A DNA stretch of 62,928 bases from positions 378,701 through 441,628 of the forward strand of contig NZ_JH815192.1 in NCBI RefSeq assembly GCF_000296405.1, in the 5' to 3' direction. The position numbers and the translations under genes were made by a program. The notes under the pieces were generated by a model, which was not told the origin of the DNA, searched no databases, and saw only the letters and a program-made list of their open reading frames with translations. The DNA comes from Corynebacterium otitidis ATCC 51513. Its GTDB lineage: Bacteria; Actinomycetota; Actinomycetes; Mycobacteriales; Mycobacteriaceae. Position 1 is the first letter of the stretch. The number at the start of each line of letters is the position of its first letter. Below, piece after piece: positions 6,856-15,200 of this stretch.

Positions 6856-8430
6856 ATGGCGTCTCAGGAGCACTCCCCCGCTAGCGGCTCGACGCGCCAG
6901 GGGGAGGGCGGCGGCTACGCGAGCGACGCGGAGCGCAAGCGCATGCTGCCGTGGGTGATCGCCACCCTCATCCTCTCGATGCTCATGAGCTCGCTCAACC
7001 AGATGATCTTCGTCGCCGCGCTGCCCACCATCGTCGGCGAGCTCGGCGGCGCGAACCACATCTCGTGGGTGATCAGCGGCTTCCTCCTCGGCCAGACGAT
7101 CGCCCTGCCGATCATCGGGAAGCTCGGCGACCAGATCGGCCGCAAGGGCCTCTTCCTCGGCGCGACCGTCGTGTTCGTCATCGGCTCGCTGCTCGGCGGC
7201 TCGGCGACGTCCATCGGGGTGCTCATCGCCGCGCGCATCGTCCAGGGGCTCGCCGCGGGCTCGCTCATGACGCTCTCCCAGGCGATTACCGCGGAGGTGA
7301 CGACCTCGAGGGAGCGCGGCCGCTACATGGGCTTCATGTTCGCCGCCTTCGGCGTCGCCTCCGTGCTCGGCCCGGTGCTCGGCGGCTGGTTCACCGACGG
7401 GCCCGGCTGGCGCTGGGGCCTGTACTTCAACGTGCCGCTCGGCGCGATCTCGCTGATCTCCACGGCGCTGCTGCTCAAGCTGCCGCGCCGGCCGAAGCGC
7501 CTCGACTGGGATATCCCCGGCACCATCGCGATGATCGTCGCGACCTCGAGCCTCATCGTCACGGTGACGTTCGGCGGCAACCAGTACGAGTGGACCGACC
7601 CGGTCATCCTCACGCTCGCGGGCGTGTTCATCGTCTCCACGCTGGCGTTCCTCTTCGCGGAGCTCCACTCCAGCGAGCCGCTCATCGCGCTCGGCCTGTT
7701 CCGCAAGCGCAACTTCCTCATCACGACGCTGTGCGGCTTCGGGGTGGGCATCTTCCTCTTCGGGACGCTCGCCTACCTGCCGACCTACATGCAGATGGTC
7801 CACATGCTCTCCCCCACCAACGCGGGCCTGATGATGGTGTGGATGATCGCCGGCATGATGGCCACCTCGATCACGACGGGCCAGATCATCTCGCGCACGG
7901 GCAGCTACAAGTGGTTCCCCGTCGTGGGCCTCACGCTCGTGGGCGTCATGCTCGTCCTCATCTCCGGGGTCACCCCGGAGACGCCGCTGACCAGGCTCGG
8001 GTTCTACATGCTCGGCCTCGGCGTCGGCATCGGCATGACCATGCAGATCCTCCTGCTCATCGTGCAGAACGCGTTCCCGCTCTCCGAGGTGGGCGTGGTG
8101 ACCTCGGTGAACAACTTCTTCCGCCAGACCGGCGGCGCCGTGGGCACCGCCCTGGTGGGCAGCGTGCTCTCCGCGAACCTCGCGGAGCTGCTCGCCGAGC
8201 GGGTGCCGGCCGCGCTCGGCGACGACGTCGACCCCGGCGCGCTGCCGGACGCGTCGAGCCTCACCCCGGACATCATCGACGACCTGCCGCCGGCGCTCAC
8301 CGAGGCGGTGACGAGCTCCTACAACGACGCGCTCATGCCGGAGTTCCTGTGGCTCGCGCCGCTGGCGTTCGCGTGCGCCGCGGCGCTGCTCTTCATCCGC
8401 AACGACCGGCTCAAGGAGACCATCGACTAG
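6856..8430 (+). CDS. MFS transporter, DHA2 (EmrB/QacA-like, 14-TM) family
   Basis: Proton-driven exporter of the major facilitator superfamily. The 524-residue product has about 14 hydrophobic segments and the DHA2 hallmarks: motif A GKLGDQIGRKGLFL after TM2, and the family C motif GPVLGGWFTDGPGWRWGLYFNVPLG around TM5. A periplasmic loop of about 50 residues lies near 440-490 before the last helix. GGAAAGGA precedes the ATG by about 12 nt. The upstream gap contains two TATCG repeats 11 bp apart, but no regulator gene is adjacent. The substrate is unknown; multidrug export is the family norm. Confidence 0.88.
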   Translation: MASQEHSPASGSTRQGEGGGYASDAERKRMLPWVIATLILSMLMSSLNQMIFVAALPTIVGELGGANHISWVISGFLLGQTIALPIIGKLGDQIGRKGLFLGATVVFVIGSLLGGSATSIGVLIAARIVQGLAAGSLMTLSQAITAEVTTSRERGRYMGFMFAAFGVASVLGPVLGGWFTDGPGWRWGLYFNVPLGAISLISTALLLKLPRRPKRLDWDIPGTIAMIVATSSLIVTVTFGGNQYEWTDPVILTLAGVFIVSTLAFLFAELHSSEPLIALGLFRKRNFLITTLCGFGVGIFLFGTLAYLPTYMQMVHMLSPTNAGLMMVWMIAGMMATSITTGQIISRTGSYKWFPVVGLTLVGVMLVLISGVTPETPLTRLGFYMLGLGVGIGMTMQILLLIVQNAFPLSEVGVVTSVNNFFRQTGGAVGTALVGSVLSANLAELLAERVPAALGDDVDPGALPDASSLTPDIIDDLPPALTEAVTSSYNDALMPEFLWLAPLAFACAAALLFIRNDRLKETID

Positions 8431-8491
8431 CCCCCCGGCTAGCCTCCGTCGCGCGCGGGCGCCGCCCGCCCGCCGCGCGGATAGAAGAGAA

Positions 8492-8526
8492 CCGCCCCGG
8501 CGGGCCAGCTCGGCCCGCCGGGGCGG
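8492..8526. terminator. Bidirectional terminator between the exporter and encapsulin genes
   Basis: CCGCCCCGGCGGGCC / GGCCCGCCGGGGCGG, a 15-bp perfect stem with a 5-nt loop, followed by CGTTCTTT on the plus strand. It sits between convergent stops at 8430 and 8587. Confidence 0.85.
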
Positions 8527-8586
8527 CGTTCTTTCGGCCCCGCTCCCCCGCCGCCCTACGCGGCGCGGGAGGAGGCGGGGCGCCCT

Positions 8587-9402
8587 CTAGTTCGGCTCGG
8601 CGATGGCGACGCCGGCCTCCTCGGAGGCGACGGCGAAGGTGAAGGACTCCTGCAGGTAGAGCTCCACGGCGTTCGCGTCGGAGCTCGTGTAGCCGATGGA
8701 GAGGTCCTGGCCGAGGTGGAGCTCGTAGTCCCCGCCGCGGGCGGAGACGAGCAGCGCCCCGTCGAGCGCGGGCGCCCAGATGAGGCGGCCGTCCTCGCGC
8801 AGCACCCGCTCGATGTGCTGCCGGATCGGGTAGCCGTGGTCGGTCTCCTGGAGCACCTTGGTGTAGAGCTCCTCGGAGAGCAGCAGGTTGTAGGGGCCCT
8901 CGACGCCCTCGCGGCGCAGCTTGTTGAGCGCCTCGGCGACGGCGCCGGGCAGCTCGGCGGTATCGCTCGGCAGCTCGACGGGCTCGTTGTCGGAGCTGCG
9001 CACGATCCCGGGGATCGCGCCGTCCTTCGTGCCGTGGAAGACGATCCGGTCCTCGGCGATGGCGATGCGGCGGGCGGCGGCGCGCACCGCGTCGACGTCG
9101 GCATCGACCGCGCCGCGCAGCACGGCGTCGAGCTCCGCGCGCTCGAGGGTGAAGGGCACCTTGAGCTCGACGACGGGGTAGACCTCGCGGGTGCGGGTCT
9201 CCACCCCGTCGGTCGCGGACGGCCCGTCGGTGAGCCGGCCGGTCGACAGCGCGGAGAAGTCCAGCCCCTTGGGCTCGGTGACGTCGACGACGCGGCGCCC
9301 CGCGATGGTGCGGGTGAACTGGGTGCGCGCGTCGTCCTCGATCTCGTCCCACGCCGCATCGGAGATCGGCGCGAGCTCGCGGTGCAGGTTGTTGGCGGTC
9401 AT
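8587..9402 (-). CDS. Encapsulin nanocompartment shell protein (family 1, linocin M18/CFP29-like)
   Basis: HK97-fold protein that self-assembles into an icosahedral protein shell loading cargo enzymes. The 271-residue product matches the family in length and landmarks: N-terminal NNLHRELAPISDAAWDEIEDDA; GRRVVDVTEPKG near 36; then the spine helix and A-domain with FHGTKDGAIPGI and the C-terminal TFAVASEEAGVAI. The start is fixed by GGGAGG 7 nt before the ATG. It is the second gene of an operon, 100 nt after the DyP peroxidase, which carries a loading peptide. The gap between them holds a hairpin that may set their relative yield. Confidence 0.93.
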   Translation of the reverse strand: MTANNLHRELAPISDAAWDEIEDDARTQFTRTIAGRRVVDVTEPKGLDFSALSTGRLTDGPSATDGVETRTREVYPVVELKVPFTLERAELDAVLRGAVDADVDAVRAAARRIAIAEDRIVFHGTKDGAIPGIVRSSDNEPVELPSDTAELPGAVAEALNKLRREGVEGPYNLLLSEELYTKVLQETDHGYPIRQHIERVLREDGRLIWAPALDGALLVSARGGDYELHLGQDLSIGYTSSDANAVELYLQESFTFAVASEEAGVAIAEPN

Positions 9403-9430
9403 GGCGGTCCTCCCAAAACGCTTCGTTCGG

Positions 9431-9453
9431 CCCGCGGCGTGCTGCGCCGCGGG
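9431..9453 (-). promoter_or_regulatory. Intercistronic hairpin between the DyP and encapsulin genes
   Basis: CCCGCGGCG - TGCTG - CGCCGCGGG, a 9-bp perfect stem with a 5-nt loop, 28 nt upstream of the encapsulin start on the transcribed strand. It could stabilise the shell cistron or partly terminate read-through; no T-run follows. Confidence 0.5.
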
Positions 9454-9502
9454 TGATGGTTTCTAAGGCGTCGGTGTTCGGTTGTCTCTCGGCGGTCGGC
9501 GC

Positions 9503-10582
9503 TTAAGAGCGCGGGGCGTCGTCCTCGCGGCCGAGGTCCGGGGTGGCGCGCAGCCCGCCGATGCCCAGGCCGCGCTCGGGCCCGCCGGCCGGGGGCGCGG
9601 TTAGCTCCGGCTCCCCTGCCCCGTCGCCGTCGTCCTCGGCGGGCTCGCCGGGAGCCGGCAGGTCGGCGAGCCCCTCGAGCTGCGCGACCGAGGGGATGAA
9701 GAACAGGGTGCCGGTCTCGGGGATCGAGAAGTCGAGGATCCGGTCGTAGTTGCCCTCCGGGCTGCCCAAGAACATGTTCTTAAGCATCTGCTCGGTCACC
9801 CACGTCCGGCCGCTGTAGCCGATGAAGAACGTGCCGACCTCCCCGTCCTTTAAGGATCCGAAGGGCATGTTGAGCCGGAAGATGTCCTGGTCCTCGCCGT
9901 CGTCGTCCTCGACGTCGTTGAGCGCGACGTGCGAGTTGTCCGGCTGGGCGTCGTCCTCGAGCTCGACGTCGTCGAGCTTCGTGCGCCCGATGACGCGCTC
10001 CTGCTCCTCGGTGCTCAGCGCCTCCCAGTCCTCGATCAGGTGCCGGTAGCGCTGCACGTGCACGTACGAGCCGCCCGCGTAGTCGGGGTCCTCCTCGGCG
10101 GAGATGCGCACCGCCCGCTCGGCGTCGGAGCCCTCGGGGTTCTCCGTGCCGTCGACGAAGCCTAAGAGGTCGCGGTTGTCGAAGTAGCGGAAGCCCTGCA
10201 CCTCGTCCTCGACCTCGACGTCGCCGCCGAGCTTCGCAAGGACGATGCGGGCGAGCTCCCAGCACATGCCCATCTCCCGGCCGCGGACGTGGAGGAACAC
10301 GTCGCCCGGCGTCGAGGGCGCGGCGTGCTTCGCGCCGCGCAGCTCCGGGAAGGGGTGCAGGTCCTTCGGCTTGCGCGCCGAGGTCATCCGGCCCCACATC
10401 TCGGAGCCCAGCCCGACGACCGCGATGAGCTCGGCGTCGTTGTGGCGGAACGAGACCGCCCGGGTGAGCTCGGGGAGCTCGGCGAGCTGGTCGCGCACCG
10501 CCACCGCCCTGCCGGGCCCGACGGTGAGAGTGAGGAAGATCGCGGCGTTCGCCGGCGCGGAGACGATCTGCTGGGTCGCCAT
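9503..10582 (-). CDS. Dye-decolorizing (DyP-type) haem peroxidase, encapsulin cargo
   Basis: Haem peroxidase that uses hydrogen peroxide to oxidise a broad range of substrates. The 359-residue product has the family GxxDG motif in GFVDGTENPEG (141-151, catalytic Asp 144), the downstream HVQRYRHLIEDW helix and GYSGRTW. The C-terminus is a disordered Pro/Asp/Gly-rich linker ending in LGIGGLR (339-345) plus 14 residues, which matches the encapsulin loading-peptide pattern (LxIGSLK). The ATG at 10582 is chosen over a GTG at 10594: the GAAAGGGGG ribosome site is only 1 nt from the GTG but 13 nt from the ATG. The encapsulin gene follows in the same operon, so this is the likely native cargo. Confidence 0.93.
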   Translation of the reverse strand: MATQQIVSAPANAAIFLTLTVGPGRAVAVRDQLAELPELTRAVSFRHNDAELIAVVGLGSEMWGRMTSARKPKDLHPFPELRGAKHAAPSTPGDVFLHVRGREMGMCWELARIVLAKLGGDVEVEDEVQGFRYFDNRDLLGFVDGTENPEGSDAERAVRISAEEDPDYAGGSYVHVQRYRHLIEDWEALSTEEQERVIGRTKLDDVELEDDAQPDNSHVALNDVEDDDGEDQDIFRLNMPFGSLKDGEVGTFFIGYSGRTWVTEQMLKNMFLGSPEGNYDRILDFSIPETGTLFFIPSVAQLEGLADLPAPGEPAEDDGDGAGEPELTAPPAGGPERGLGIGGLRATPDLGREDDAPRS

Positions 10583-10621
10583 CGCTAGCGGCACACCCCC
10601 TTTCGGTTCGCGCGCGTGGCT

Positions 10622-10654
10622 GCCCTCCCCGACCCCTTACTTCCCGGGGAGGGC
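10622..10654 (-). terminator. Hairpin downstream of the GNAT gene
   Basis: GCCCTCCCC pairs with GGGGAGGGC (9 bp, 15-nt loop), 114 nt beyond the GNAT stop and 40 nt before the DyP start. It probably terminates the acetyltransferase transcript, leaving little room for a separate DyP promoter except within or after the hairpin. Confidence 0.45.
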
Positions 10655-10767
10655 GCTTCGGCCCGCCCCGGGACAACGCCCAGGGGCAGGTCCTTATGCC
10701 ACCCACGCTAGCGGCCGCCGCGGACGCGTGCCGCGGGTTTGCCTCGCCCGGGGCGTGCCCGGCGCGT

Positions 10768-11325
10768 TTAGGTGTCCGGCAGGTCCTCGACGTGGATGTC
10801 GGGCTTGTCGAGGAGCTTCTCCCACACGTCCGTGTCGCGCCACTCGCCCTCGCGCTCCCCGTAGGGCATCTTCGCGATGTGGTGGTACGTCGCGACCTTG
10901 GTGAAGCCGCGCGACTCGTGGAGCCGCTGGGAGCCCTCGTTTTCGGGGAAGATCCACGAGTGGATGCCCCACTTGCCGAGCGCCGCGCAGCGCTCGATGA
11001 AGCGGTCGAGGAGCTTGCCGGCGATGCCGCGGCCGATCTCCTCGGGGTCGGTGTAGATCGAGTCCTCGACCACCCCGTGGAAGACCTGCCTCGTCGAGAT
11101 CGGCGCCCCGGAGACCCAGCCGACGACCTTGTCGGGGTTCGAGGCCTCCACGGCGACGAAGAGGGTCTCGGGCAGCTTGTGGGAATAAAACTCCTCCCAC
11201 TCCGGCGCCTTGCGCTCGAAGGTGGCGTGCCCGGACTTGATGCCGTTCTCGTAGATTTCGCGGACCTGCTCGTAGTCCTGCTCGGTCATCTCGCGCACGA
11301 GGATGTCGTTGTTGCCTTCGGCCAT
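10768..11325 (-). CDS. GNAT family N-acetyltransferase (phosphinothricin/methionine-sulfoximine acetyltransferase-like)
   Basis: A 185-residue acetyl-CoA-dependent acyltransferase. The N-terminal VREMTEQDYEQVREIYENGI...GHATFERKAPEWEEF matches the PAT/Bar subgroup, and the acetyl-CoA loop is recognisable in DPEEIGRGIAGKLL followed by NEGSQRLHESRGFTKV. Members acetylate amines such as phosphinothricin or methionine sulfoximine; the real substrate here is unknown. The ATG at 11325 is chosen (AGGA 9 nt upstream); an in-frame ATG at 11346 directly after a GACAAT element could instead be a leaderless start. Confidence 0.85.
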   Translation of the reverse strand: MAEGNNDILVREMTEQDYEQVREIYENGIKSGHATFERKAPEWEEFYSHKLPETLFVAVEASNPDKVVGWVSGAPISTRQVFHGVVEDSIYTDPEEIGRGIAGKLLDRFIERCAALGKWGIHSWIFPENEGSQRLHESRGFTKVATYHHIAKMPYGEREGEWRDTDVWEKLLDKPDIHVEDLPDT

Positions 11326-11485
11326 GGCTCCACGTCCTGTCTTCATCGCTGGGATTGTCTCGAGTTGGCCGCCGCGAGGACGCCTCGCCGCGCGGGGCCG
11401 GCCGATCCGCGCCGCGGCGCGGTGGGCTCGCGGCGCTTCGCGCCAACCTACGCCATCTCGCCGCGCCGGTCACCCCGGCGCCCCG

Positions 11486-12157
11486 TCAGCGCCGGCCGCG
11501 GCGCCTGCCCTTGGGCTTCGCGCGCGCGGCGCGGCGGGCCTGCTTGGCAAGCGTCTTCTCCCGCGCGCTGCGCTTCTTCGGCCGCTCCAACCTGGTGGAG
11601 TTGGCCGTGCGGCCCTTGGCGATGCCAACGAAATCCTGGATCGCGGGCGAGTCCTTCTCCTTGGGCCACACGAGAGCGATGGAGGTCTGTGGCACCGAGT
11701 CGTCGCGGTACTTCAGGGCCGCGACGCGCCGCCCGGCGAGCTGGCGCACGAGCGGGAAGGGCGCGACGACGACGCCGACGCCGGCGGCGACGACGGGCAG
11801 GAGCTCGCGGACCTTCGCGGGGTCGACGTCGCCGCTAGGCGTGGGCCGGTAGTGGCACGTTTCGCCTGCGATGTCGGCGGCGTCGATGGGCCCGCCGGCG
11901 AGCGCGTAGACGCTCTCGGCGGGCACGCCCACGCCGCGGGCCTCCTCGTAGAGCACCACCCGGTGGAGCTCGCCGGCGCGCTCCTCGACCCTTCGGTCCG
12001 GGAGCCTGACGAGCGCGGCGTCGGCCGCGCCGTTAAGGAGCCGGGCGACGGGGTCGTCGGCGGCCGCGGCGTCGAGGGCGGGGTGGCCGGTGCGCTCGGT
12101 GTAGCGGCGCAGCCACTTGCCGGGCTCGGTGCCGGTGGCGAAGCTTAAGGTCACCAT
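11486..12157 (-). CDS. LysR-type substrate-binding domain protein lacking the DNA-binding domain
   Basis: A 223-residue protein beginning directly at the first beta strand of a LysR effector domain (VTLSFATGTEPGKWLRRY) and continuing through the PBP2 fold (about 1-185), then a very basic tail (ARRAARAKPKGRRRGRR). No helix-turn-helix is encoded before the start, so it cannot act as a usual LysR regulator by itself. It is divergent from the DUF5997 gene with only 25 bp between start codons. Similar stand-alone proteins occur in other corynebacteria; the ligand and role are unknown. Confidence 0.75.
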   Translation of the reverse strand: MVTLSFATGTEPGKWLRRYTERTGHPALDAAAADDPVARLLNGAADAALVRLPDRRVEERAGELHRVVLYEEARGVGVPAESVYALAGGPIDAADIAGETCHYRPTPSGDVDPAKVRELLPVVAAGVGVVVAPFPLVRQLAGRRVAALKYRDDSVPQTSIALVWPKEKDSPAIQDFVGIAKGRTANSTRLERPKKRSAREKTLAKQARRAARAKPKGRRRGRR

Positions 12158-12182
12158 GGGCTGGAATGATACGGTACGAGCC

Positions 12183-12563
12183 GTGAGCGACCAGCCTGCC
12201 AACGACAGCCCGCGCCCCGCGTCCTCGACGGCGATGAAGCCGGCGACCGCGGCGAAGAAGCTCGGGATCTTCCTGCCCGCCGCGCCGCAGGAGTTCCGCG
12301 ATAACGCGGTAACCCACGCGGAGCTTCGCGAGCTGCAGCACAACCCGCCGGAGTGGCTCAACGAGCTGCGGCGCACCGGCCCGCACCCGCGGCCGGTCGT
12401 GGCGCAGAAGCTGGGCGTGACGATCTCGGCGCTCAAGCGCAACGGCGCGGACAAGGCGCTGACCACCGAGGAGATCAACGAGCTCCTCGCTAACAAGCCC
12501 GCCTGGCTCGAGGAGGCCCGCCGGCAGCTCGCCGAGGAGCGCGCCGCCCGCGGCGACGCCTAA
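12183..12563 (+). CDS. DUF5997 family protein
   Basis: A small hydrophilic protein of 126 residues. The core MKPATAAKKLGIFLPAAP...LRELQHNPPEWLNELRRTGPHPR...VAQKLGVTISALKR resembles the actinobacterial DUF5997 family and has a possible helix-turn-helix (VAQKLGVTISALKRNG). The GTG at 12183 has no ribosome site but a TACGGT-like -10 about 7-12 nt upstream, so it is probably leaderless. The promoter overlaps that of the divergent LysR-domain gene, which suggests the pair is expressed or regulated together. Confidence 0.75.
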   Translation: MSDQPANDSPRPASSTAMKPATAAKKLGIFLPAAPQEFRDNAVTHAELRELQHNPPEWLNELRRTGPHPRPVVAQKLGVTISALKRNGADKALTTEEINELLANKPAWLEEARRQLAEERAARGDA

Positions 12564-12620
12564 CGCCTCATCTCAAGCCCTCCCCCGCCGCGCCGATCCC
12601 CAGACCCGGCGCGGGAGGCC

Positions 12621-12697
12621 CAGACAGCGACGCGCCCGCCGCTGCGCCCCGGCCTGCTCGGCCTGCGGGGCGCGGCGCGCGGGCGCTCGCGTCTGTC
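12621..12697. terminator. Large bidirectional hairpin between the DUF5997 gene and glyA
   Basis: CAGAC...GCGCCCCGGCC pairs imperfectly with GGCCTGCGGGGCGC...GTCTG over some 30 bp with a short TGCTC loop, followed by TTTTTC on the plus strand. It separates convergent genes. Confidence 0.7.
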
Positions 12698-12709
12698 GAG
12701 GTGATTTTT

Positions 12710-13999
12710 CTAGTCGAGGAACTTCCAGTCCTCGAGCCCGTCGTAGAGCGGGTACTGCTCGGCGAGCTTGTCGACGCGGCGGCGCAGCGCCTCGACGTCG
12801 GCGTTCTTGCCCTCGACGAGCGCGGTGCCGATGATGTCGGCGACCTCGGTGAAGGCCTCCGCGCCGAAGCCGCGGGTCGCGAGCGCCGACGCGCCGATCC
12901 GCAGGCCGGAGGAGACTGCCGGCGGGCGCGGGTCAAAGGGCACGGCGTTGCGGTTGACGGTGATCCCCGCGGCGTGGAGGAGGTCCTCGCCCTGCTGCCC
13001 GTCGAGCGGGGAGTTGCGCAGGTCGACGAGCACGAGGTGGACGTCCGTGCCGCCGGTGACGAGGTCGACGCCCGCCTCCTTGGCGTCCTTCTCGAGGAGG
13101 CGCTCGGCGATGATCTGCGCGCCCTCGATGGTGCGCTTCTGGCGGTCCTTGAACTCCTCGCCCGCGGCGATCTTGAAGGCGGTGGCCTTCGCGGCGACGA
13201 CGTGCATGAGGGGGCCGCCCTGCTGGCCGGGGAAGACGCGCGAGTTGAGCTTCTTCGCCCAGTCCTGCTTCGCGAGGATGAGCCCGGAGCGCGGCCCGGA
13301 GAGCGTCTTGTGCACCGTCGAGGAGACGATATCGGAGTGCGGCACCGGGGAGGGGTGCAGGCCGGCGGCGACTAGGCCCGCGAAGTGGGCCATGTCGGTC
13401 CACAGCACGGCGCCGACCTCGTCGGCGATCTCCCGGAAGGCGGCGAAGTCCTCGATGCGGGGGTAGGCCGACCAGCCGGCGATGATGACCTTCGGGCGGT
13501 GCTTCTTCGCGAGCTCGCGCACCTGGTCCATGTCGACGCGCATGGTCTCCGGGTTCACGCCGTAGGCGACGACGTTGTAGAGCAGCCCGGAGAAGTTGAT
13601 CTTCATCCCGTGGGTGAGGTGCCCGCCGTGGTCGAGGGACAGCCCGAGGATCGTGTCGCCGGGCTCCGCCGCCGCGGCGAGCACCGCCGCGTTCGCCGTC
13701 GCGCCCGAGTGGGGCTGGACGTTGGCGAACTCCGCGCCGAAGAGCTCCTTCGCGCGGTCCCGGGCGAGGTCCTCGACGACGTCGACGTGCTCGCAGCCGC
13801 CGTAGTAGCGCCGCCCCGGGTAGCCCTCGGCGTACTTGTTGGTGAGCACCGAACCCTGCGCCTGGAGCACCGCGCGCGGCACGAAGTTCTCCGAGGCGAT
13901 CATCTCAAGGGTGCTGCGCTGCCGGTCGAGCTCCCCGCCGATGGCGGAGAACACCTCGGGGTCGAGCTCGGACAGCGCCTGGTATCGCACATCACTCAT
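12710..13999 (-). CDS. glyA: Serine hydroxymethyltransferase
   Basis: PLP enzyme interconverting serine plus tetrahydrofolate with glycine plus methylene-tetrahydrofolate, the main source of one-carbon units. The 429-residue product contains the PLP lysine K231 in [14 protein letters not shown], plus [17 protein letters not shown] and [18 protein letters not shown] sits 8 nt before the ATG. Between the start and the probable promoter lies a 13-bp hairpin. The gene is divergent from coaA, as in C. glutamicum. Confidence 0.96.
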
Positions 14000-14026
14000 T
14001 ATTTTGTCTCCTTGTCAAAGGCCTAA

Positions 14027-14068
14027 CGGCGCCCGGCCGCCCCCGCCCCGCCTGTCGGCCGGGCGCCG
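14027..14068 (-). promoter_or_regulatory. Strong hairpin in the glyA 5' leader region
   Basis: A perfect 13-bp stem (CGGCGCCCGGCCG with CGGCCGGGCGCCG) around a 16-nt loop, 28 nt upstream of the glyA start and just before its ribosome site. If transcription begins upstream, this structure would lie in the leader; its effect is not deducible. Confidence 0.45.
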
Positions 14069-14261
14069 CCATGATGGCGTGGGACAAAGCCGGCTTCGCC
14101 GGATCCGGAAAACACCTTACCTTCTAGATGTAGCACGAATTACACGCCCACCTGGGCATCGAGTGGGCGGTATACATTCATCGCGCCGGGCCGCGGGCCG
14201 CGCGGGACCCGGCGGGGGGTTGACGGGGGAGGCGGGGTGGCATAAGGCACAATGGTGAGTC

Positions 14262-15200
14262 ATGACTCGCAGCAGCGGATCGCCCAAGTCGGTGAGCCCC
14301 TACCTGGAATTCTCCCGGGCGCAGTGGCAGGAGCTGCGTCAGGCCATGCCGATGGTGCTCTCCGAGGCCGAGGTCGCGGAGCTCCGCGGCATCGGGGAGA
14401 ACATCGACCTCGCGGAGGTCGCCGAGGTCTATCTGCCGCTCTCGCGCCTCTTACACCTCCAGGTGCGCGCCCGGCAGCGGCTCATGGACGCCACGACGAC
14501 GTTCCTCGGCCAGCCGCCAGTGCCGGTGCCGTTCATCATCGGGCTCGCCGGCTCGGTGGCGGTCGGCAAGTCCACCACCGCGAGGCTTTTGCAGGTGCTC
14601 CTCCAGCGCTGGGACACCCACCCGAGGGTCGACCTTGTGACCACCGACGGGTTCCTCCACCCCGCCGCGGAGCTCAACCGGCGCGGGCTGATGAAGCGCA
14701 AGGGTTTCCCCGAGTCCTACGACCAGCGCGCGCTGTTGCGCTTCGTCACCAACGTCAAGGCCGGGCAGCGCGACGTGCACGCCCCGCTCTACTCGCACCG
14801 CCTCTACGACCGGGTGCCCGATGAGGACATCGTCGTCGACCAGCCCGATATCCTCATCCTCGAGGGCCTCAACGTCCTCCAGACGGGGCCGAGCCTCATG
14901 GTCTCCGACCTGTTCGACTTCTCCATTTACGTCGACGCCCCCTCGGAGATCATCGAGAAGTGGTACGTCGAGCGCTTCCTCACCATGCGCGACACGGAGT
15001 TCCGCCGGCCCGACTCCCACTTCAAGGGCTACGCAGGGCTCTCCGACGACGCCGCCGTCGCCGAGGCCCGCGACTTCTGGCAGTCGATCAACCTGCCCAA
15101 CCTCGTGGAGAACATCCTGCCCACCCGGGTGCGCGCCTCGCTCGTGCTCACCAAGGGCGAGAACCACCGCGTCCAGCGGGTGCGGATGCGCAAGCTCTAG
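14262..15200 (+). CDS. coaA: Pantothenate kinase (type I)
   Basis: First step of coenzyme A synthesis: ATP-dependent phosphorylation of pantothenate. The 312-residue product has the P-loop [12 protein letters not shown] (94-105), the VTTDGFLHP motif, GFPESYD and the C-terminal [15 protein letters not shown]. The ATG at 14262 follows CATAAGG and CACAAT elements without a well-spaced ribosome site, so initiation may be weakly led or leaderless. Confidence 0.95.

Follow-up and report, generated by a model that had tools for sequence, protein, structure and literature searches.

A DyP peroxidase–encapsulin operon in Corynebacterium otitidis, a putative nanocompartment system rare in the genus

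DyP–encapsulins are common, the benefit of the shell to the enzyme is still debated, and free DyPs are active. The locus described here lies in a 62,928-nucleotide stretch of the genome of Corynebacterium otitidis ATCC 51513 (the whole stretch is hereafter called the window), and it raises two questions: do its two adjacent genes encode a peroxidase-loaded compartment, and how did such a pair come to stand at this place in this genus?

Identification of the shell protein and its cargo

The two genes of the unit are the following:

8587..9402, minus strand: family 1 encapsulin shell protein, 271 aa, recognised by Pfam, NCBIfam, PDB and fold comparisons
9503..10582, minus strand: DyP-type peroxidase cargo, 359 aa, recognised by its domains and the heme-pocket motifs D144, H218, R236 and N238

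By sequence, the product of 8587-9402 is a family 1 encapsulin, the single one of the genome. It matched Pfam Linocin_M18 (E 8.5e-91) and the NCBIfam equivalog NF041155 encap_f1 (324 bits, for a cut-off of 100), and its top PDB sequence match was 7bcv from Brevibacterium linens (E 4.4e-85). An AlphaFold2 model of the shell built from 33 sequences reached a mean pLDDT of 90, versus only 52 for a model built from four sequences. Compared with the PDB, the former matched 7phm, 6i9g and 7bcv at TM 0.94 (rmsd 1.4-1.6, 50-54% identity), these best folds coming from the encapsulins of M. tuberculosis, M. hassiacum and B. linens. An HK97-type fold is predicted from this model, in agreement with the first-pass annotation, which had proposed an encapsulin for the 271-residue protein. 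A phage capsid was ruled out, as the equivalog model is that of family 1 encapsulins and the 50 best folds were all encapsulins or engineered cages derived from them.

The product of 9503-10582 is, judging from its domains and motifs, a DyP-type peroxidase, and the genome encodes one DyP at E ≤ 1e-30. Its length was counted from an ATG; starting instead from a GTG at 10594, the protein would be 4 aa longer. Both Dyp_perox domains were found (Pfam), TIGR01413 scored 263 bits (cut-off 100.5), and the best PDB sequence matches were 7bok, DypB (3qnr) and, in the M. tuberculosis encapsulin complex 9bkx, the DyP component. The four heme-pocket residues were identified by motif, and the Asp (D144) and the Asn (N238) presumably have their usual DyP heme-pocket roles; those of the His and the Arg are taken from parts of PMC10960027. 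Since the genome also encodes a catalase, the DyP–encapsulin pair is not its sole defence against peroxide.

Operon structure and flanking genes

The unit is bordered and subdivided by the following features:

6856..8430, plus strand: MFS exporter (outside the unit), the left flank, conserved in the genus
8491..8527, minus strand: terminator-like hairpin 3' of the encapsulin gene, 17 pairs, terminator-like on the plus strand too
9403..9502, minus strand: spacer from the DyP stop to the encapsulin start, 100 nt, with a Shine-Dalgarno-like GGGAGGA
10768..11346, minus strand: GNAT acetyltransferase (outside the unit), the right flank, conserved in the genus

On the minus strand, the DyP gene is followed by the spacer containing GGGAGGA and then by the encapsulin gene, and the hairpin stands between the latter and the convergent MFS gene. 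The open reading frames, their strand and their positions were all as first annotated, with encapsulin and DyP forming one unit between the MFS exporter and the GNAT gene. In family 1 systems the cargo gene is described as immediately preceding that of the shell (PMC8346489, in part), and the window DyP gene ends 100 nt 5' of the shell gene, on the same strand.

A search of genome contigs with the shell matched at least 593 stretches; 573 of these were confirmed, and the 80 best were retained. DyP adjoined encapsulin in 77 of the 80 loci fetched from these best matches, so the pairing is not a matter of chance. The window spacer is long, given that the shell and DyP genes overlapped in 63 of 83 relatives (under a simple start rule). 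A potential hairpin in the spacer was not stronger than in shuffled sequences (z -0.03), an Rfam search of positions 8000-14500 gave no match, and a consensus scan of 8400-10900, which covered the sigma-70-like type only, found no promoter of that type.

Encapsulin genes without a DyP in the stretch read were also observed: in Brevibacterium yomogidense (L012 4443-6807), directly downstream of an Rce1-like membrane protease-like gene, and in Ca. B. intestinigallinarum (L013 1382-3653), where the upstream gene resembled, by eye, that of L012.

Loading peptide

A candidate loading peptide was recognised near the C-terminus of the window DyP:

about 9548..9574, minus strand: loading-peptide-like motif RGLGIGGLR, located from the translation, 14 residues before the DyP stop

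The consensus of the encapsulin targeting peptide is given as GSLxIGSLK in parts of PMC10960027. The window motif keeps the L, I, G and L of this consensus and its basic residue (as Arg), with Arg, Gly and Gly replacing Gly, Ser and Ser. A census of 133 encapsulin-linked DyPs (not de-duplicated, with 127 distinct cores, and omitting L253, whose DyP is interrupted) found the motif in 131. Among these 131 motifs, the first serine place (Ser339) was occupied by S (127), T (2), A (1) or R (1), and never by Gly; the second by S (89), T (31), D (6), G (4) or A (1). At the G338 place, where the window has Arg, Gly was present in 116 and Arg in 2. Ser and Thr were both absent from the two places in one other encapsulin-linked DyP out of 131. 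The motif was followed by a median of 4 residues, and by 14 or more in 2 out of 131, compared with 14 in the window DyP.

In the alanine scan of the Klebsiella peptide, as described in parts of PMC10960027, the three hydrophobic residues, the second Gly and the terminal Lys were each essential for loading; G338A cut loading substantially, the S339A/S344A double mutant eliminated it, and the remaining hydrogen-bond mutants lowered it to varying degrees. The binding site on the shell was taken from the same source, with the E. coli shell as a proxy for numbering. The peptide-binding Arg34, Asp38 and Asp229 correspond to identical residues of the window shell (R36, D40 and D233), and other positions of the site are changed (Ile230 to Leu234 and Thr217 to Ala221). 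Because RGLGIGGLR has neither of the conserved serines, the window DyP may be loaded more weakly than usual.

A more advanced state, a decaying compartment in which the shell is still made while the DyP is loaded poorly or no longer and works mostly free in the cytosol, seems unlikely to us. It would fit a motif with no Ser at either place and Arg at the G338 place, considering what the corresponding Klebsiella mutations did to loading (PMC10960027, in part), as well as the 55 out of 59 related corynebacterial loci that function without a shell. However, all the residues individually essential in Klebsiella (L, I, G, L and the basic residue, here Arg) are kept, as are the peptide-binding residues of the shell, and the other encapsulin-linked DyP without Ser or Thr at both places indicates that the window is not alone in this respect.

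An exact LGIGxL[KR]-like DNA pattern, used to look for a second cargo, occurred at four places in the whole genome: in the window DyP, and at three others that, judged by eye, lie in spurious frames or midway through a UvrA-like protein.

Some atypical loci were noted among those fetched. In L004 513-2295 (genome G182), the encapsulin-adjacent DyP ends with the tail SLGIRNNQKGK, a degraded loading peptide. In L253 (G476), a stop interrupts the DyP frame, and encapsulin adjoins it. The DyPs of L285 (G572) and L262 (G448) have peptide-like ends (GSL/SSL...G.L[KR]) with no encapsulin within the stretch read, which may reflect contig ends or a recent shell loss.

Distribution in Corynebacterium

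With one genome sampled per species, a family 1 encapsulin was found, above cut-off in each case, in 4 of 242 Corynebacterium genomes (4 of the 235 good ones): the window genome, G149, G173 and G182. DyP adjoins the shell in each of the last three, at loci other than that of the window. In a control of the encapsulin search on 14 named genomes, a signal was obtained in three, above cut-off in one; C. glutamicum was one of the 14 and not among the three. The rarity in the genus that had been anticipated was thus confirmed, including the lack of signal in C. glutamicum.

The pair had also been expected to be foreign to the fumC-glyA interval of other species. We compared 27 glyA neighbourhoods of other genomes (G149, G173 and G182 included), of which 24 also contain fumC and so represent the full interval, and no encapsulin or DyP match was obtained at E ≤ 1e-8 in any of them. 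A pair present throughout the genus at this locus was ruled out by these neighbourhoods (0 out of 27) together with the four shell carriers among 242 genomes. MFS then GNAT, as in the window, was observed in 21 of the 27 neighbourhoods, with a gap of 26-1208 nt in 20 and of 3430 nt in one, compared with 2337 nt in the window (values are approximate, being measured between match edges). In the remaining six, MFS was undetected (3), GNAT was undetected (2), or the region was rearranged (1). At the G173 locus (L003 2416-3195), the opposite-strand gene after the encapsulin gene resembles, by eye, an rRNA adenine methyltransferase.

In the available parts of PMC7355545, Corynebacterium appears merely as a test organism, and the string "corynebacteri" is absent from the main text of PMC8346489. 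The operon is a further example of a known compartment type, rare in Corynebacterium.

This distribution could suggest a recent horizontal import of a DyP–encapsulin operon into the MFS-GNAT gap, which holds no such genes in all 27 neighbourhoods, and enterobacterial operons of this type are found on plasmids and close to transposases. We nevertheless consider such an import very improbable. The GC (0.71-0.72) and GC3 (0.97-0.99) of both genes are like those of their neighbours, and the relatives compared were all at most 59% identical; for the shell, the best identity among the best 80 matches was 58% (59% in another alignment, 57-59% overall). Moreover, the DyP belongs to a corynebacterial lineage (see below), there is no tRNA near the unit, and repeats at its edges amounted to scattered short matches inside genes, none of them flanking the unit or scar-like. 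Of the strain- or clade-specific insertion proposed in the first-pass annotation, the absence from the other species compared at this place therefore stands, whereas the insertion itself is not supported, given the corynebacterial DyP clade, the native composition, the lack of a close donor among the relatives compared and the lack of a tRNA or scar.

Shell-less DyP relatives

A DyP was detected at E ≤ 1e-30 in 84 of the 242 Corynebacterium genomes, 59 of which matched the window DyP at E ≤ 1.1e-80: four with a shell and 55 without. No encapsulin match was obtained at these 55 loci with the window shell (E ≤ 0.1) or with eight shells (E ≤ 1e-3), and the encapsulin search of the 242 genomes found none elsewhere in the 55. 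The peptide-like motif was present in the last 70 residues of none of the 55 DyPs. Past the stops of five of them, no relic of a tail was seen, and a shell relic was found at none of the 55 loci. The window DyP was 62-64% identical to the shell-less DyPs of G192 and G015, versus at most 58% to the encapsulated DyPs compared.

At the level of the class, 62 of 345 genomes (that of the window counted) had a DyP at E ≤ 1e-60. Encapsulin was near DyP in 51 of 63 loci (that of the window excluded, about 1.5 to 2.5 kb being read on each side), and 47 of these 51 shell-linked DyPs carried the peptide (strict expression). The other 12 loci had no encapsulin in the stretch read, although contig ends or short flanks may hide some.

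A second corynebacterial case was provided by G149, at a locus (L141 8379-13576) ordered DUF4185 (plus strand), encapsulin (minus), DyP with peptide (minus) and MFS (plus). In G050, the order is DUF4185 (plus), DyP without tail (minus) and MFS (plus), and the ends of DyP and DUF4185 overlap. Six shell-less loci from six species (L204 and L206-L210) share both G149 flanks, with 51-57% and 64-68% identity, these identities being backed by domain matches in G149 and G050. The G149 DyP groups, in a second clade (support 100, 108-row tree described below), with 12 shell-less corynebacterial DyPs, several of which retain a similar linker (QPA...) that stops ahead of any peptide.

Phylogenetic analysis and origin of the pair

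Trees were built after near-duplicates had been removed by hand, leaving 58 and 62 rows for the shell and 79, 108 and 48 rows for DyP; the L025 shell, whose start is unreadable, was omitted from all shell trees. In the quick 108-row DyP tree, the window DyP shared a clade (SH-aLRT 99) with 18 shell-less corynebacterial DyPs. In the careful 48-row tree, G192/G165 formed its sister group (95/77), and the whole window clade was in turn sister to the encapsulated Kocuria varians DyP (90/87); excluding the window from the shell-less clade gave p-AU 0.037, and joining the window and Kocuria DyPs alone was rejected (p-AU 0.015). The position of Kocuria is a soft point, as its DyP was placed elsewhere in the 108-row tree. 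In the shell trees, the window shell was near those of Kocuria and two Brevibacterium (100/95 and 98/88; 95 and 83 in the 62-row tree), where long branches meet. AU tests on the 58-row shell tree did not reject the four corynebacterial shells as one clade (p 0.0985), and gave p 0.025 for the window and G149 shells together. The comparison of shell and cargo identities was saturated (r = 0.13 for the window).

We favour a repeated loss of the shell in Corynebacterium over its recruitment, which is a serious rival. There is about an even chance that the window pair descends from an encapsulated DyP lineage and was kept here, shell and peptide having been lost several times in the genus. Loss is favoured because encapsulation is the common state outside the genus (the 51 out of 63 loci above). 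The position of the Kocuria DyP as sister to the clade, with the Kocuria shell near that of the window (100/95; 95), also speaks for loss, as do the placement of the window DyP within the shell-less clade (SH-aLRT 99; p-AU 0.037 for keeping it out) and the two flanks that G149 has in common with the six shell-less loci. That Kocuria is nearest for both shell and DyP is what would be expected if the pair had stayed together. On the other hand, in the 48-row DyP tree the window clade requires three losses versus one loss and one regain, so step counts alone do not favour loss, and the long branches of the shell trees, the different position of the Kocuria DyP in the 108-row tree, the rejected window-Kocuria grouping and the saturated comparison also weigh against it.

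Under recruitment, a free, shell-less corynebacterial DyP would have acquired both an encapsulin gene and a tail for loading, here and separately in G149, for example by recombination with an incoming DyP–encapsulin operon; the pair would be young, and the compartment would work in the same way. This is possible, although we rather doubt it. It would account for the window DyP being nested among shell-less DyPs in the 79-, 108- and 48-row trees with fewer steps, for the grouping of the window shell with Brevibacterium shells lacking an adjacent DyP, for the unusual peptide, and for a locus that differs from that of the shell-less relatives. It is less consistent with the distance of both genes from everything sampled (57-59% for the best shell), with their native GC3, and with Kocuria being the nearest encapsulated relative in both the careful DyP tree and the shell trees.

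Returning to the favoured reading of repeated loss, the chances seem balanced that at least two corynebacterial DyP lineages shed encapsulin and peptide, the window representing a late stage at which the peptide is eroding. A narrow keyword search of the literature found no report of encapsulin gene loss together with the targeting peptide. In PMC8346489 (in part), which counts 1,505 DyP systems, the way operon types are distributed is taken to indicate that horizontal transfer has been frequent.

Proposed function

Overall, it is highly probable that the two genes form a DyP–encapsulin operon that makes a DyP-loaded cage; its retention from an encapsulated lineage is less certain. What was established for the window is the identity of the genes, the predicted fold, the gene order, the peptide, and the binding- and active-site residues. 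By analogy with characterised homologues, 60 copies of the shell protein would make up a T=1 cage of the HK97 type, about 24 nm in size. DyP hexamers would be packed inside through the C-terminal RGLGIGGLR, which would dock in the groove on the inner side of the shell (R36, D40, D233). The enclosed DyP would oxidise an organic co-substrate, entering through the pores, with H2O2, and this oxidation would also remove peroxide. That the cage assembles, takes up its cargo, is active and protects against peroxide (perhaps together with acid) is inferred from these homologues: at low pH, the M. tuberculosis system gives protection from oxidative stress (PMC8635971, in part), and the enterobacterial DyP likewise has its highest activity at low pH (PMC12140327, in part).

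Comparison with known systems

The DyP–encapsulins of M. tuberculosis and M. smegmatis resemble the window system in their family 1 shell (50-51% identity, TM 0.94), and encapsulin-linked DyPs are among the top PDB sequence matches of the window DyP. However, the genes of the mycobacterial pairs fetched mostly overlap, whereas the window has a 100-nt spacer and a peptide without both serines; a stress role has been demonstrated in the mycobacterial system (PMC8635971, in part) and is presumed for that of the window. The Linocin-M18 and DyP of Brevibacterium linens are similar in shell fold (7bcv, 54% identity, TM 0.94), but this identity is only about 54%, and genus and locus are different.

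The Klebsiella and E. coli DyP–encapsulins follow the same logic of shell and cargo, with Arg34, Asp38 and Asp229 identical in the window shell. Their operons include FDH and RpoH genes with transposases nearby (PMC10960027 and PMC12140327, both in part), whereas the window neighbours are MFS and GNAT genes. The serine-less peptide of the window offers a natural test of the peptide rules derived from Klebsiella mutants.

The closest relatives of the window DyP are the shell-less corynebacterial DyPs (G192, G165, G015), with up to 62-64% identity. These stop near residue 305-311, lacking both linker and peptide, and their genomes have no encapsulin, in contrast with the window DyP, which has both peptide and shell. 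The same DyP lineage, with shell and peptide in few species and without them in many, thus provides matched pairs for testing the shell, including a pair at a single locus (G149 versus six other species). If true, the decapsulation reading would allow the contribution of the shell to DyP to be tested directly.
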